From positions 1 through 62,738 of the forward strand of contig JACPSE010000153.1 in NCBI GenBank assembly GCA_016193465.1: a stretch of DNA of 62,738 nucleotides, in the 5' to 3' direction. Of the stretch, positions 34,272-39,678 are shown one piece after another; positions within the stretch are counted from its first letter, which is position 1; every line of letters starts with the position of its first letter. The position numbers and the translations under genes were made by a program. The notes under the pieces are model-generated. The model made no database searches and had not been told where the DNA came from. It saw nothing but the letters and a program-made list of their open reading frames with translations. This stretch comes from Deltaproteobacteria bacterium (lineage in GTDB: Bacteria > Desulfobacterota > Binatia > UBA9968).

Positions 34272-34300
34272 TTGACAAAGGGTGTCTTCTAAGATAGGTA
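34272..34300 (+). promoter_or_regulatory. Candidate promoter of the ZTP-riboswitch operon
   Basis: TTGACA (34272-34277) is followed after 17 bases by TAGGTA (34295-34300), ending ten bases before the riboswitch. The -35 is perfect; the -10 is poor. The preceding 34139-34270 shows nothing else. Confidence 0.45.
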
Positions 34301-34310
34301 AAAATTAATC

Positions 34311-34390
34311 CATCGGTTTGCGCGACTGGCGTCTGCGTGGAATCAACCACGAGGGAGTGCAAAGCGTTAAGATGGCCGAACGCCTGGGTC
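34311..34390 (+). ncRNA. ZTP (pfl) riboswitch
   Basis: The conserved parts of the pfl motif are present in order. P1 is TTTGCGC (34317-34323) with GTGCAAA (34357-34363). Inside it is GACTGGCG (34324-34331), then hairpin P2 GTGG (34337-34340) with CCAC (34347-34350), then GAGGGAG. The 3' domain is GGCCGAACGCCTGGG (34374-34388), whose CGCC can form the pseudoknot with GGCG of the first part. ZTP is the phosphorylated purine-pathway intermediate ZMP that accumulates when 10-formyl-tetrahydrofolate is short; these RNAs switch on purine and one-carbon genes. Here the controlled genes would be a class V aminotransferase, serA and possibly purA. Confidence 0.88.
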
Positions 34391-34418
34391 TCTTAAGGAA
34401 AGAGGTTCAGGCTTTTTT
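34382..34418 (+). terminator. Intrinsic terminator that forms the expression platform of the riboswitch
   Basis: GCCTGGGTCTCTT (34382-34394) pairs with the segment 34400-34412 around a five-base loop, followed by six T's (34413-34418). The 5' arm includes the GCCTGGG that belongs to the ZTP-binding 3' domain, so ligand binding and terminator formation exclude each other. The next start codon is 44 bases downstream. Confidence 0.88.
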
Positions 34419-34461
34419 ATTTTATGCCGTGCCAATCAACTTCGCCTAACGAGGACAAGAG

Positions 34462-35604
34462 ATGATTAAACAATATTTGCTCGCGCCAGGCCCCACACCC
34501 ATCCCCAACGAGGTGGTGAGGGCGATGGACCAGACCATGATTCACCACAGGACGCCACAGTTCAGCAAGGCCTTTGCCGAGGCGCGAGAGGAACTCAAGG
34601 CGCTCTTCGGAACGAAAAATGACGTGCTGGTTTTGGCCTCATCGGGAACCGGCGCGATGGAGGCGGCTGTCGCGAACCTTTTCTCTCCGGGCGAAAAAGT
34701 GCTGGTCGTGAACGGAGGAAAATTCGGCGAGCGCTGGATGCAAATCTCTCAAGCGTTCGGCTTAGAGGTAGTCCAGCTTAAAGTAGAATGGGGAAAAGCC
34801 GTTAAGCCCGATGTCATAGAGAATCACCTCAAGGTTTATCCTGATATCCAAGGCGTTCTCATCCAGGCGAGCGAGACCTCCACCACGACTCTGCATCCGG
34901 TTCGGGAAATCGCTCAGCTCACCCGCAACGGCCCGCTTCTCATCGTCGATGGGGTCACCGCCGTCGGCGTCTTGCCCGTGCCGATGGATGATTGGAACAT
35001 CGATGTCCTGGTCACCGGTTCCCAAAAGGCGCTCATGCTTCCACCGGGACTCGGCTTTATCGCTCTCAGCGATCGCGCTTGGGGAAGAACGGAAAAGGCC
35101 AAGCTTCCCAGGTTCTATCTGGATTTGCGCCTCGAGCGAAAAAATCAGCAGAAAGGATCCACCGCTTTCACTCCGGCGGTCTCGCTGATCTTCGGCCTGC
35201 GCGCGTCTTTACAGATGATGAGAGAGGAAGGATTGGAGCGGGTTTACGCCCGCCACGAAAGATTGGCTCGGGCCACGCGGGCGGCAGCTACCGCGCTGGG
35301 GCTCAGGCTCCTCGCGCCCGACAACCCCAGCCCGGCAGCCACGGGGATCATGCTTCCCGGAGGTATCGATGGCGACAAGCTGCTAGATTATTTCAGGGAG
35401 CGCATGGGGATTACCTTCGCCGAAGGCCAAGATCAATTGCGGGGGAAGATTATCCGCATTGCCCATGTGGGTTATATCGGCGCCTTTGACGTTCTGGTCG
35501 CCATCGGCGCCTTGGAGATGGCGCTTAAGAAATTCGGACAGCCAGTGAAGTTCGGCCAAGGAATAGCTGCCGCACAAGAAATTCTTATGGAGAGTCTCGA
35601 TTAA
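34462..35604 (+). CDS. Class V PLP aminotransferase (serine-pyruvate/alanine-glyoxylate or phosphoserine type)
   Basis: The 380-residue enzyme starts YLLAPGPTPIPNEVVRAM, typical of the alanine-glyoxylate/serine-pyruvate branch. ASSGTGAMEAAVANL binds the phosphate, VDGVTAVGVLPVPMDDW holds the cofactor Asp, and the Schiff-base Lys is in VTGSQKALMLPPG. Because it is one base-overlapped with serA, its likely role is the transamination of 3-phosphohydroxypyruvate, as known for such SerC substitutes in some archaea and deltaproteobacteria; a glyoxylate role is the alternative. It is the first gene after the ZTP riboswitch. Confidence 0.88.
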   Translation: MIKQYLLAPGPTPIPNEVVRAMDQTMIHHRTPQFSKAFAEAREELKALFGTKNDVLVLASSGTGAMEAAVANLFSPGEKVLVVNGGKFGERWMQISQAFGLEVVQLKVEWGKAVKPDVIENHLKVYPDIQGVLIQASETSTTTLHPVREIAQLTRNGPLLIVDGVTAVGVLPVPMDDWNIDVLVTGSQKALMLPPGLGFIALSDRAWGRTEKAKLPRFYLDLRLERKNQQKGSTAFTPAVSLIFGLRASLQMMREEGLERVYARHERLARATRAAATALGLRLLAPDNPSPAATGIMLPGGIDGDKLLDYFRERMGITFAEGQDQLRGKIIRIAHVGYIGAFDVLVAIGALEMALKKFGQPVKFGQGIAAAQEILMESLD

Positions 35605-37187
35605 TGAAAATCCTTGTGACAGATAGTCTGGCCCGTCAGGGACTTGAGGTATTTGAGCGCGCTGCCGGCTTCGAGGTTGATGTCCGTCTCGGGCTCAAGC
35701 CGCCGGAGCTAAAGAAGATTGTCGGAGATTACCACGGCTGGGTGATCCGCAGCGGCACCAAGGTGACTGCGGATCTTATCGAGGCCGCGGAAAATCTCAA
35801 AGTCGTCGGCAGGGCCGGCGTCGGTGTCGAGAATATCGATGTCGAGGCCGCCAGTAAAAAAGGCATTGTGGTCATGAACACGCCCGGCGGAAACAACGTG
35901 ACCACCGCTGAGCACACCATTTCCCTGATGCTCTCCCTTGCCCGCCACATCCCTCAGGCTGTCGCCTCCCTCAAGGCCGGCGAGTGGAAGCGGGACAAGT
36001 TCATGGGCGTGGAGCTGTGCAACAAAACTCTTGGGGTCATCGGTCTCGGCAACGTGGGGCGCATTGTCGCCGAGCGAGCCGTGGGCTTAAGAATGAAGGT
36101 GATCGCGCATGATCCCTTTGTGTCGCCTGAAAACGCGGCCCGTCTCGGAGTCGAGCCGGTCGGCCTGGAGGAGATTTTCAAGAGGTCCGACTTCATCACC
36201 GTGCACGTCCCGTTGACCAACGAGACCCGCGGGCTGATCAATCGAGAGGCCTTCGCCAAGATGAAGAAGGGAGTCAGGATCATCAACTGCGCTCGGGGCG
36301 GCATCGTCGATGAAAAGGATCTGGCGGAGGCGCTCAAAGAAGGCAACGTGGCAGGGGCGGCGCTGGATGTCTATGTTGATGAACCACCTCCGCCCGACCA
36401 TCCCTTCTTTAAAATGGAGCAGGTCATTACCACTCCGCACCTGGGGGCTTCCACGGATGAGGCGCAGCTCAACGTCGCGATAGCCGTGGCGGAGCAGATG
36501 GTTGATTTTCTAGCCCGCGGGATTATCCGATATGCGGTCAATATCCCCTCCGTGAGCCCGGAGCTTCTGAGCGCGCTTCGACCCTATCTTACTTTGGGAG
36601 AAAAACTCGGCAGCCTCCAGGTACAAATGCTGGCCGCATTGCCCAAAGAGGTCCATATCGAATACGGCGGGGAAGTAACCCAGTACGACGTGGCGCCGCT
36701 GACGCTGGCCGTGCTTAAGGGAATCTTGACCCCGGTGATGGAATCAAATGTCAATTATGTCAATGCCCCGGTGGTCGCGCGCGAGCGAGGAATCAAAGTC
36801 GTGGAATCCAAGAGCAACCTGGCAAGTGATTTTGCCAGCTCGATCACGGTAAAGGTAAAGACCAAACAGAAAGAGCTCGAGGTCAAAGGCGCGATCTTCG
36901 GCAGCAACAACCCCAGAATCGTTAAGATCAATAGCTTTTATCTCGAGGCGGTCCCCGAGGGCTACATTGTCATCCTTCATAACCGGGATGTCCCCGGCGT
37001 GATCGGGGCTGTAGGTACCCTACTGGGACAGAAGGGCATCAACATCGCCAGTATGGAGTTGGGTCGGGAAAAGGTAGGCGGGATGGCGATCTCCCTTTTT
37101 CATGTTGACGACGCCGTCCCCAAGGAGACTCTCGAAGCCCTGCGCAGTCTGCCGAATATTGTTACCGCTGAACTGGTAAAACTTTAG
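35604..37187 (+). CDS. serA: D-3-phosphoglycerate dehydrogenase
   Basis: The 527-residue enzyme begins serine synthesis. The NAD motif GLGNVGRIVAERA follows TLGVIGLGN; active-site residues are in RSGTKVTADLI (substrate), NCARGGIVDEKDL, and the His in TTPHLGASTDEAQ. The long form is complete: an allosteric-substrate-binding domain (about 320-450) and a C-terminal ACT domain (VILHNRDVPGVIGAVGTLLG) that gives serine feedback. The ATG overlaps the stop of the upstream aminotransferase by one base, so both should be under the ZTP riboswitch. Confidence 0.94.
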   Translation: MKILVTDSLARQGLEVFERAAGFEVDVRLGLKPPELKKIVGDYHGWVIRSGTKVTADLIEAAENLKVVGRAGVGVENIDVEAASKKGIVVMNTPGGNNVTTAEHTISLMLSLARHIPQAVASLKAGEWKRDKFMGVELCNKTLGVIGLGNVGRIVAERAVGLRMKVIAHDPFVSPENAARLGVEPVGLEEIFKRSDFITVHVPLTNETRGLINREAFAKMKKGVRIINCARGGIVDEKDLAEALKEGNVAGAALDVYVDEPPPPDHPFFKMEQVITTPHLGASTDEAQLNVAIAVAEQMVDFLARGIIRYAVNIPSVSPELLSALRPYLTLGEKLGSLQVQMLAALPKEVHIEYGGEVTQYDVAPLTLAVLKGILTPVMESNVNYVNAPVVARERGIKVVESKSNLASDFASSITVKVKTKQKELEVKGAIFGSNNPRIVKINSFYLEAVPEGYIVILHNRDVPGVIGAVGTLLGQKGINIASMELGREKVGGMAISLFHVDDAVPKETLEALRSLPNIVTAELVKL

Positions 37188-37194
37188 GAAAAAG

Positions 37195-38592
<1,398 letters not shown>

Positions 38593-38593
38593 C

Positions 38594-38643
38594 CCGTGTT
38601 CGTGATTCGTGTTCGTTCTTCCGAGCACGAGCAACGAGCACGA
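38594..38643. repeat. CGTG-rich imperfect palindrome, copy D
   Basis: Left half cccgtgttcgtgattcgtg, right half gagcacgagcaacgagcac. It fills the convergent spacer between purA and the binding-protein gene and can fold into a stem, so it could serve as a bidirectional terminator. The right half is the inverse of the left half of copy A. Confidence 0.65.
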
Positions 38644-38652
38644 CCAACGGTC

Positions 38653-39678
38653 TTAGCGTAGCTTGAATATCTCTAAGTAGAGCTTTACCGTCTCGTCGAA
38701 TTTCGCGTAATCCTCCGGGTTCTCGATGACGTACTTATAGCCCCTAAAGAGCCTCGGGGGATCCGGGTCCACATCCCTGCGGACGGGAATCCGCTGGAAA
38801 CTGCTCAGCATCGCGGCCCCTTCTTTTGAAAGAACGAAGTCCAGGAAAAGTCTGGCGGCGTTGGGATGAGGCGCGTTGGAAGCCAGCATTATCGGATTGA
38901 CCTGTACTACAGCCGGCTCCAGAGGCAGCCAGTCGATCGGCGCCCCTCTTGAGGTCATCCTTTGGATCGTTTGGTTGTAGGCAAGGATGAGCGGATATTC
39001 GCCGGCCACGGCCATCTGGACCCTTTCCGTGTTTCCTCGTTTGGGAACCGGATCCAGAGCGGCTAGCCTCTTAAAGTAAGACACGGCCTTTTCTTTTCCC
39101 CATAGTCCGATGAGTCCTTGAAGCATCCCATAGGCTTCGGTGTCGACAGAGATCTGCCCCTTCCACCTGGGGTTGAGAAGGGCCTCATAGGTTTTTGGAA
39201 CATCCTCCTTTTTCACCATCTTGGTGTTCCAGCCAAGCACATAGGTATTGACGTAGTAGGCGGTCCAGTACCCTTCCTTATCGACCAACTGGCTGTCTAT
39301 CATCTTGGTCTCGGGCGAGATGTAAGAGGCCAAGAGCTTTTTCTCCATCAGAGGAAGAACCATCTCTCCCCTACCGACCAGAACGTCCCAGGCATGTCTC
39401 CCGCCGCGAACCTCGGTCATGATCTTGTTGAGGAGCGGGCCGCCGCCGGTGCGGAAAAGCGTAGGCTTGATAAAAGGGTACTTCGCCTGGAAGCGGTCCA
39501 CGACCGTCTTACTCTGGTCCAGCGTCATGGTGGTGTAATATATGACCTCGCCTTCCTTTTTCGCCCCTTCGACAATCTTCGGATCCGGGCCGCCCTGTGA
39601 CCAACCGATGGCGGCTGGCAAACAAACAGCGACAAGCAACGCGCAGAACACTAAAATCACTTTAAGACGATCCAACAT
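38653..39678 (-). CDS. Periplasmic solute-binding protein, ferric-iron type, orphan
   Basis: The 341-residue protein has a signal peptide (VILVFCALLVAVCLPAAIGW) and a mature part of the FbpA/AfuA class: IVEGAKKEGEVIYYTTMTLD, TKMVKKEDVPKTYEALLNPR, and HPNAARLFLDFVLSKEGAAM. It is a clear paralogue of the protein at 24390-25424. GGAGGGAG precedes the start. No permease or ATPase gene is adjacent; the gene upstream on the same strand is gamma-glutamyltransferase, which might release amino acids, but any functional link is speculation. Confidence 0.88.
   Translation of the reverse strand: MLDRLKVILVFCALLVAVCLPAAIGWSQGGPDPKIVEGAKKEGEVIYYTTMTLDQSKTVVDRFQAKYPFIKPTLFRTGGGPLLNKIMTEVRGGRHAWDVLVGRGEMVLPLMEKKLLASYISPETKMIDSQLVDKEGYWTAYYVNTYVLGWNTKMVKKEDVPKTYEALLNPRWKGQISVDTEAYGMLQGLIGLWGKEKAVSYFKRLAALDPVPKRGNTERVQMAVAGEYPLILAYNQTIQRMTSRGAPIDWLPLEPAVVQVNPIMLASNAPHPNAARLFLDFVLSKEGAAMLSSFQRIPVRRDVDPDPPRLFRGYKYVIENPEDYAKFDETVKLYLEIFKLR

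Follow-up and report, generated by a model that had tools for sequence, protein, structure and literature searches.

ZTP riboswitches are ON switches, in which the pseudoknot blocks an overlapping terminator (PMC2864571; PMC7337938). The five genes they most commonly control are purH, fhs, pfl, glyA and folD (PMC2864571). Serine synthesis is also among their targets: Bacillus and Oceanobacillus carry tandem ZTP/glycine riboswitches before the gene which starts serine synthesis from 3-phosphoglycerate (PMC9481103). A further precedent concerns an enzyme of that pathway. Sll1559 (SerC2) from Synechocystis is described in PMC9997740 as a phosphoserine transaminase from outside the SerC family, and a case of non-orthologous replacement.

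The locus studied here was found in a window of 62,738 nucleotides, the whole stretch of DNA that was analysed (contig JACPSE010000153.1 of assembly GCA_016193465.1), from a Deltaproteobacteria bacterium of the class Binatia. A ZTP aptamer precedes a class V aminotransferase gene, serA and purA, and judging from the sequence it very probably acts as a transcriptional ON switch for this serine and AMP synthesis operon.

The ZTP aptamer and its terminator

The window was scanned with all 4227 Rfam families at gathering thresholds, with E-values that take in the whole window and every family, and the only match was RF01750 (ZMP-ZTP) at 34312-34396 on the + strand. The match spans the full model, positions 1-86 of 86, at 58.3 bits (E 6.9e-07). 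The features of the leader are as follows.

34272..34277, + strand: -35 box TTGACA of a presumed sigma-70 promoter, read from the sequence
34295..34300, + strand: presumed -10 box TAGGTA after a 17-nt spacer, inferred from conserved spacing in relatives
34312..34396, + strand: ZMP/ZTP riboswitch aptamer RF01750, from cmscan, its structure kept in 40 relatives
34314..34366, + strand: P1, pairing 34314-34323 with 34357-34366, from the Rfam structure mapped onto the window
34324..34331, + strand: J1/2 core GACTGGCG, read from the sequence, its columns nearly invariant in alignment A2
34328-34331, + strand: 5' strand of the pseudoknot, GGCG, inside the J1/2 core
34337..34350, + strand: P2, pairing GTGG (34337-34340) with CCAC (34347-34350), from the mapped Rfam structure
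34374..34390, + strand: P3, pairing GGCC (34374-34377) with GGGT (34387-34390), from the mapped Rfam structure
34381-34384, + strand: 3' strand of the pseudoknot, CGCC, enclosed by P3
34382..34412, + strand: intrinsic terminator stem-loop of 13 pairs, with a 5-nt loop at 34395-34399
34413..34418, + strand: T-run of the terminator, TTTTTT, read from the sequence
34450..34455, + strand: Shine-Dalgarno-like CGAGGA, a presumed ribosome site read from the sequence, 6 nt ahead of the aminotransferase ATG

The original prediction, correct on every point checked, had named a ZTP motif with all its core elements. When the window is fitted to the RF01750 structure, P1, P2, P3 and the pseudoknot can all be placed, and the covariance-model search that it had proposed gives a score clearly above the cut-off of 39. 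A single G-G mismatch interrupts P1, and the outermost pair of P3 is a U-U; the four pseudoknot pairs join 34328-34331 to 34381-34384, and GCCGAACGCCTGGG is located at 34376-34389. A chance Rfam match was ruled out by the E-value and by conservation in most genomes of the family. The element is a genuine and well-supported member of the known ZMP/ZTP class, not a new kind of switch. A search for a second ZTP aptamer in the host genome (238 contigs, 4.5 Mb, 100% complete) found none besides the window copy.

Position 34272, where the original prediction placed the start of the element, is the first base of the TTGACA box. In all leaders examined a TTGAC core lies at most 60 nt upstream of the aptamer, usually with a second TA-rich box 16-18 nt away. 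In the window that second box, TAGGTA, is a weak match to TATAAT and was not reported by a stricter consensus scan.

The terminator reads GCCTGGGTCTCTT-AAGGA-AAGAGGTTCAGGC-TTTTTT at 34382-34418, with a folding energy of -16.8 kcal/mol (z -2.6); by chance, 0.2 terminator-like sites would be expected in the 351-base region. This is exactly what had been predicted, with GCCTGGG in the 5' arm of a 13-pair stem followed by six T's. The 5' arm (34382-34394) includes the pseudoknot bases GCC and the 3' strand of P3, so that 34382-34390 are common to aptamer and terminator, and the leader has an expression platform which shares the aptamer's 3' strands. With these bases shared, the two structures should be mutually exclusive. 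The overlap was part of the original prediction, and its conservation in relatives strengthens this reading. The minimum-energy fold of the full leader is the terminator, in a calculation which cannot include the pseudoknot or the ligand.

In the proposed mechanism, transcription would start a few bases before the aptamer, and P1, P2, P3 and the pseudoknot would fold as the RNA emerges. With ZMP or ZTP bound, 34381-34384 and 34387-34390 would be retained in the aptamer, the terminator stem would not form, and the polymerase would continue into the aminotransferase gene, serA and purA. In the unbound RNA, the terminator arm at 34400-34412 would displace the aptamer strands and transcription would stop at 34413-34418. 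ZTP accumulates when there is too little 10-formyl-THF for AICAR to be formylated by PurH, so that at such a shortage the switch would raise serine synthesis from 3-phosphoglycerate. The serine would supply one-carbon units to THF via GlyA, and PurA, made from the same transcript, would draw the restored IMP, formed once AICAR is formylated, towards AMP. The host genome has PurH and a single GlyA.

The operon and its aminotransferase

Besides the aminotransferase gene and serA, no other gene lies between the aptamer and purA.

34462..35604, + strand: class V aminotransferase, 380 aa, a probable phosphoserine transaminase (SerC2-like); PF00266, 111 bits
35604..37187, + strand: serA, D-3-phosphoglycerate dehydrogenase with an ACT domain, 527 aa; TIGR01327, 681 bits (cut-off 454), PF19304 and PF01842
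37297..38592, + strand: purA, adenylosuccinate synthase, 431 aa; NF002223, 644 bits (cut-off 402), and TIGR00184, 559 bits, both over cut-off

The serA ATG overlaps the aminotransferase stop codon (TAATG). Since the upstream neighbour, an aldo/keto reductase gene, is divergent and the downstream neighbour, encoding a solute-binding protein, is convergent, the operon is taken to consist of the three genes listed. The purine or one-carbon/folate genes downstream of the aptamer are thus serA and purA, and they are conserved in relatives. The original prediction had read the same arrangement from the letters, and all three genes were identified by family models. Its further suggestion, that ZTP is tied to the supply of serine and to the adenylate branch, is supported, the purA link by conserved gene order. 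The ZTP-serine interpretation is also borne out by gene order behind the aptamer, which is conserved across families, though the link between ZTP and serine is not itself new.

The aminotransferase is not a member of the SerC family: against the SerC model TIGR01364 it scores 26.7 bits, where the cut-off is 443.6. A TIGR01364 search of the host genome found no SerC, the operon aminotransferase being its sole match, and so removed the possibility of a hidden SerC elsewhere in that genome. Among the 109 class genomes with a completeness of 90% or more, 108 have no SerC match at E 1e-20. Because SerC is absent, the gene overlaps serA and SerC2 offers a precedent, the aminotransferase is the best candidate for the phosphoserine transaminase, and most likely replaces SerC. 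The operon would then point to the class's missing phosphoserine transaminase. A point against the preferred reading concerns the last step of serine synthesis: no match to the phosphoserine phosphatase SerB in the host genome exceeds the model cut-off, and the two weak ones fall in long open frames of some 870-935 aa.

The aminotransferase might instead act in glyoxylate/glycine metabolism, as a serine- or aspartate-glyoxylate aminotransferase, in which case the operon would be ZTP-controlled with ZTP steering serine-glycine exchange. Its best NCBIfam model is indeed BhcA, L-aspartate--glyoxylate aminotransferase (NF045640, 329.3 bits), and the closest solved structure, 6pk1, is annotated as a serine--glyoxylate aminotransferase. 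However, the BhcA score is under the cut-off of 650 and the protein stays below every NCBIfam cut-off for glyoxylate enzymes, while the lack of SerC in the genome and in nearly the whole class, together with an adjacent and translationally overlapping SerA, favours the serine pathway. The glyoxylate role is considered unlikely.

It is unlikely that the switch governs the aminotransferase gene and serA only, with purA expressed mainly from its own start and the neighbourhood a relic of an older cluster. What speaks for this is the 109-nt gap between serA and purA, whose strong hairpin, lacking a T-run, might limit the predicted read-through into purA. Moreover, many lineages that lack a ZTP aptamer have aminotransferase-serA(-hisZ)-purA clusters too, so the switch is not the reason for the cluster. 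On the other hand, a search of 37100-38720, covering the gap and its surroundings, found neither a terminator-like site nor a promoter-like one on the same strand, and in several Binatia families the gap is down to about 10-50 nt. The preferred reading keeps purA on the switched transcript.

Inverted repeats rich in TCGTG/CACGA and without T-runs occur in the serA-purA gap (37188-37296, z -3.0) and again just after purA (38593-38655, z -5.4). The window has 18 copies of a related 12-mer against 7 expected, an excess reminiscent of REP-type elements.

Conservation, leader variants and distribution

The ZTP aptamer is present in 63 of 148 genomes of the class, including most of the window's own family. 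In family f1 it is followed by aminotransferase-serA-purA in 18 complete cases, and the same gene order stands behind the aptamer in f79, f80, f4, f82, f83, f84, f85 and f90; the count covers the loci fetched, and incomplete cases, in f1 as elsewhere, are mostly cut by contig ends. Gene order kept across families ruled out a chance neighbourhood of aptamer and operon. Most of the remaining aptamers in the class stand before glyA, an assignment made by reading translated sequences, and this fits the same serine-to-one-carbon logic.

Pairs were counted in 40 distinct relatives, using the Rfam structure on alignment A2. (In the mixed alignment A3, RNAalifold did not recover P2, and the resulting model R1, of only 12 pairs, was used to screen loci only.) The aptamer structure is paired in 89.5% of cells, vs 34-49% with slid arms. 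Both sides have changed in 8 of its pairs, vs 4.8 in shuffles and at most 5 in slid versions, and in 42 cells, vs 20.3 in shuffles. In the P1 helix (P1 and two J1/2 pairs) 7 of 12 pairs changed on both sides. P2 is paired in 100% of cells, one pair having changed on both sides in 4 relatives, and the four pseudoknot pairs are unbroken and without variation in 40/40. Pairing in the overlapping terminator reaches 93.5% of cells, vs at most 68% with slid arms. Compensatory change in the terminator shows no excess over shuffles in these 40 relatives, because the aptamer holds its 5' arm fixed. The aptamer is supported by covariation as aligned here, and the terminator overlap by conservation and the slide control.

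Of the 55 distinct aptamers preceding the aminotransferase gene, 47 have a T-run after the stem, as found by the regular expression used. The f4 leaders (L091, L092, L116, L119) and L096 (f82) have none. In the f4 leaders a hairpin forms instead between the aptamer's CGCCTGGG and the stretch just before the aminotransferase start codon, and in several cases it holds an AGGUG-like ribosome site. This suggests that in f4 the terminator was replaced by a start-codon hairpin, and that control may have shifted from termination to translation. The roughly 50 sequences would form a natural series sharing one aptamer, which acts through a terminator in some families and through a hairpin at the start codon in another. 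In a separate case, L020:2136-2330 (G092), the aptamer is followed by the apparent first ~48 aminotransferase codons and a stop, and then by serA; the aminotransferase gene seems to be largely deleted.

Two groups within Binatia have the same genes behind leaders without the aptamer. The f5 leader of the aminotransferase-serA genes (L215:1443-1553 and at least 11 further loci: L216-L226, L194, L197) has a TTGACT promoter, a short variable hairpin and then GGGGTCTGGCG...CACCAGGC-TTTTTTTT. Across 145 class genomes this pattern is confined to 18 f5 genomes, each with a single copy, and the sampled loci L194 and L197 have no Rfam match at E 0.5. It is possibly an undescribed attenuator. In the other group (L178:5380-5500, L182:1380-1501 and L166:5380-5500) a terminator-like hairpin comes directly after the TTGACT promoter of the same operon, in L178 and L182 as GCCTGGATACGGGGAGCCCATCCGGGC-TTTTTT. 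This leader has perhaps lost the aptamer and kept the terminator. The L166 record (CAMBFS010000030.1) is titled as a Klebsiella pneumoniae MAG; since its operon is of the Binatia type and its place on the tree is among Binatia, it is almost certainly mislabelled.

Such hairpins before the same genes in aptamer-less Binatia suggest that attenuation without ZTP sensing is viable here, yet it is very improbable that the window leader is itself a constitutive attenuator, whose terminator dominates at cellular ZTP levels or whose ligand response is lost, since an aptamer that had lost sensing would be expected to drift and this one has an intact core with all Rfam-consensus ligand-site bases, and P1 shows compensatory change across families. 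A ligand-responsive ON switch remains the preferred reading.

Named genomes, in Binatia and beyond, were scanned and gave 80 aminotransferase loci. Aminotransferase-serA(-hisZ)-purA clusters were found in Binatia, other "Deltaproteobacteria" lineages, Nitrospinota, Nitrospirota, Zetaproteobacteria and others, and the aptamer in only 23 of the 80 loci, belonging to Binatia and one other clade. Many relatives outside Binatia have hisZ between serA and purA (L151:8542-9549, L164:8345-9352, L188:3033-4313), and TIGR00443 confirmed hisZ in three loci. The second ZTP clade (L150, L151, L164, L169, L170, L181, L191), whose core has the form ACTGACGG, is a second bacterial group with the switch on aminotransferase-serA-hisZ-purA. 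The histidine pathway produces AICAR, and in this clade the switch would also act on that pathway.

On a tree of 59 aminotransferase and SerA sequences the aptamer label needs 6 changes, vs 16 in shuffles, and at least 5 of the changes are forced by starred branches. Lineages without the aptamer separate the two ZTP groups. The simplest reading, which is not proof, would be two gains and several losses, and the aptamer of the hisZ-bearing clade was apparently gained separately. It is possible, though less likely than not, that an old serine-AMP(-histidine) operon acquired ZTP sensing on at least two occasions, in Binatia and in a further "Deltaproteobacteria" lineage, so that ZTP would set the flow of glycolytic carbon into one-carbon units and AMP together; the Binatia that lost the aptamer would then have kept a terminator leader or put another in its place, and the f5 GGGGTCTGGCG leader may be an undescribed regulatory RNA.

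Comparison with known systems

For the riboswitch field the locus is a solid addition and no surprise. It would bring an entire serine-plus-AMP operon, in uncultured phyla, into the set of ZTP-controlled genes, and supports ZTP as a signal of one-carbon shortage. No report of a ZTP switch linked to purA or hisZ was found in the open-access papers searched.

Three described systems come close. The Synechocystis enzyme Sll1559 is a class V aminotransferase that takes the place of SerC as a non-SerC transaminase, the role predicted for the Binatia protein. The pfl motif RF01750 of Thermosinus carboxydivorans, Fusobacterium ulcerans and Clostridium beijerinckii pfl has the same aptamer, a terminator built from the P3 and pseudoknot strands and the same expected ON direction, whereas the window regulates aminotransferase-serA-purA in place of purH, fhs, pfl, glyA or folD. 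The tandem switches of Bacillus and Oceanobacillus likewise place serine synthesis under ZTP as a one-carbon source, and with this precedent ZTP control of the first serine-synthesis step is not new (PMC9481103). Those systems are two-aptamer A AND NOT B gates, whereas the window has a single ZTP aptamer, belongs to another phylum and includes purA in the operon. The conserved operon setting is a well-supported new context for a known switch.
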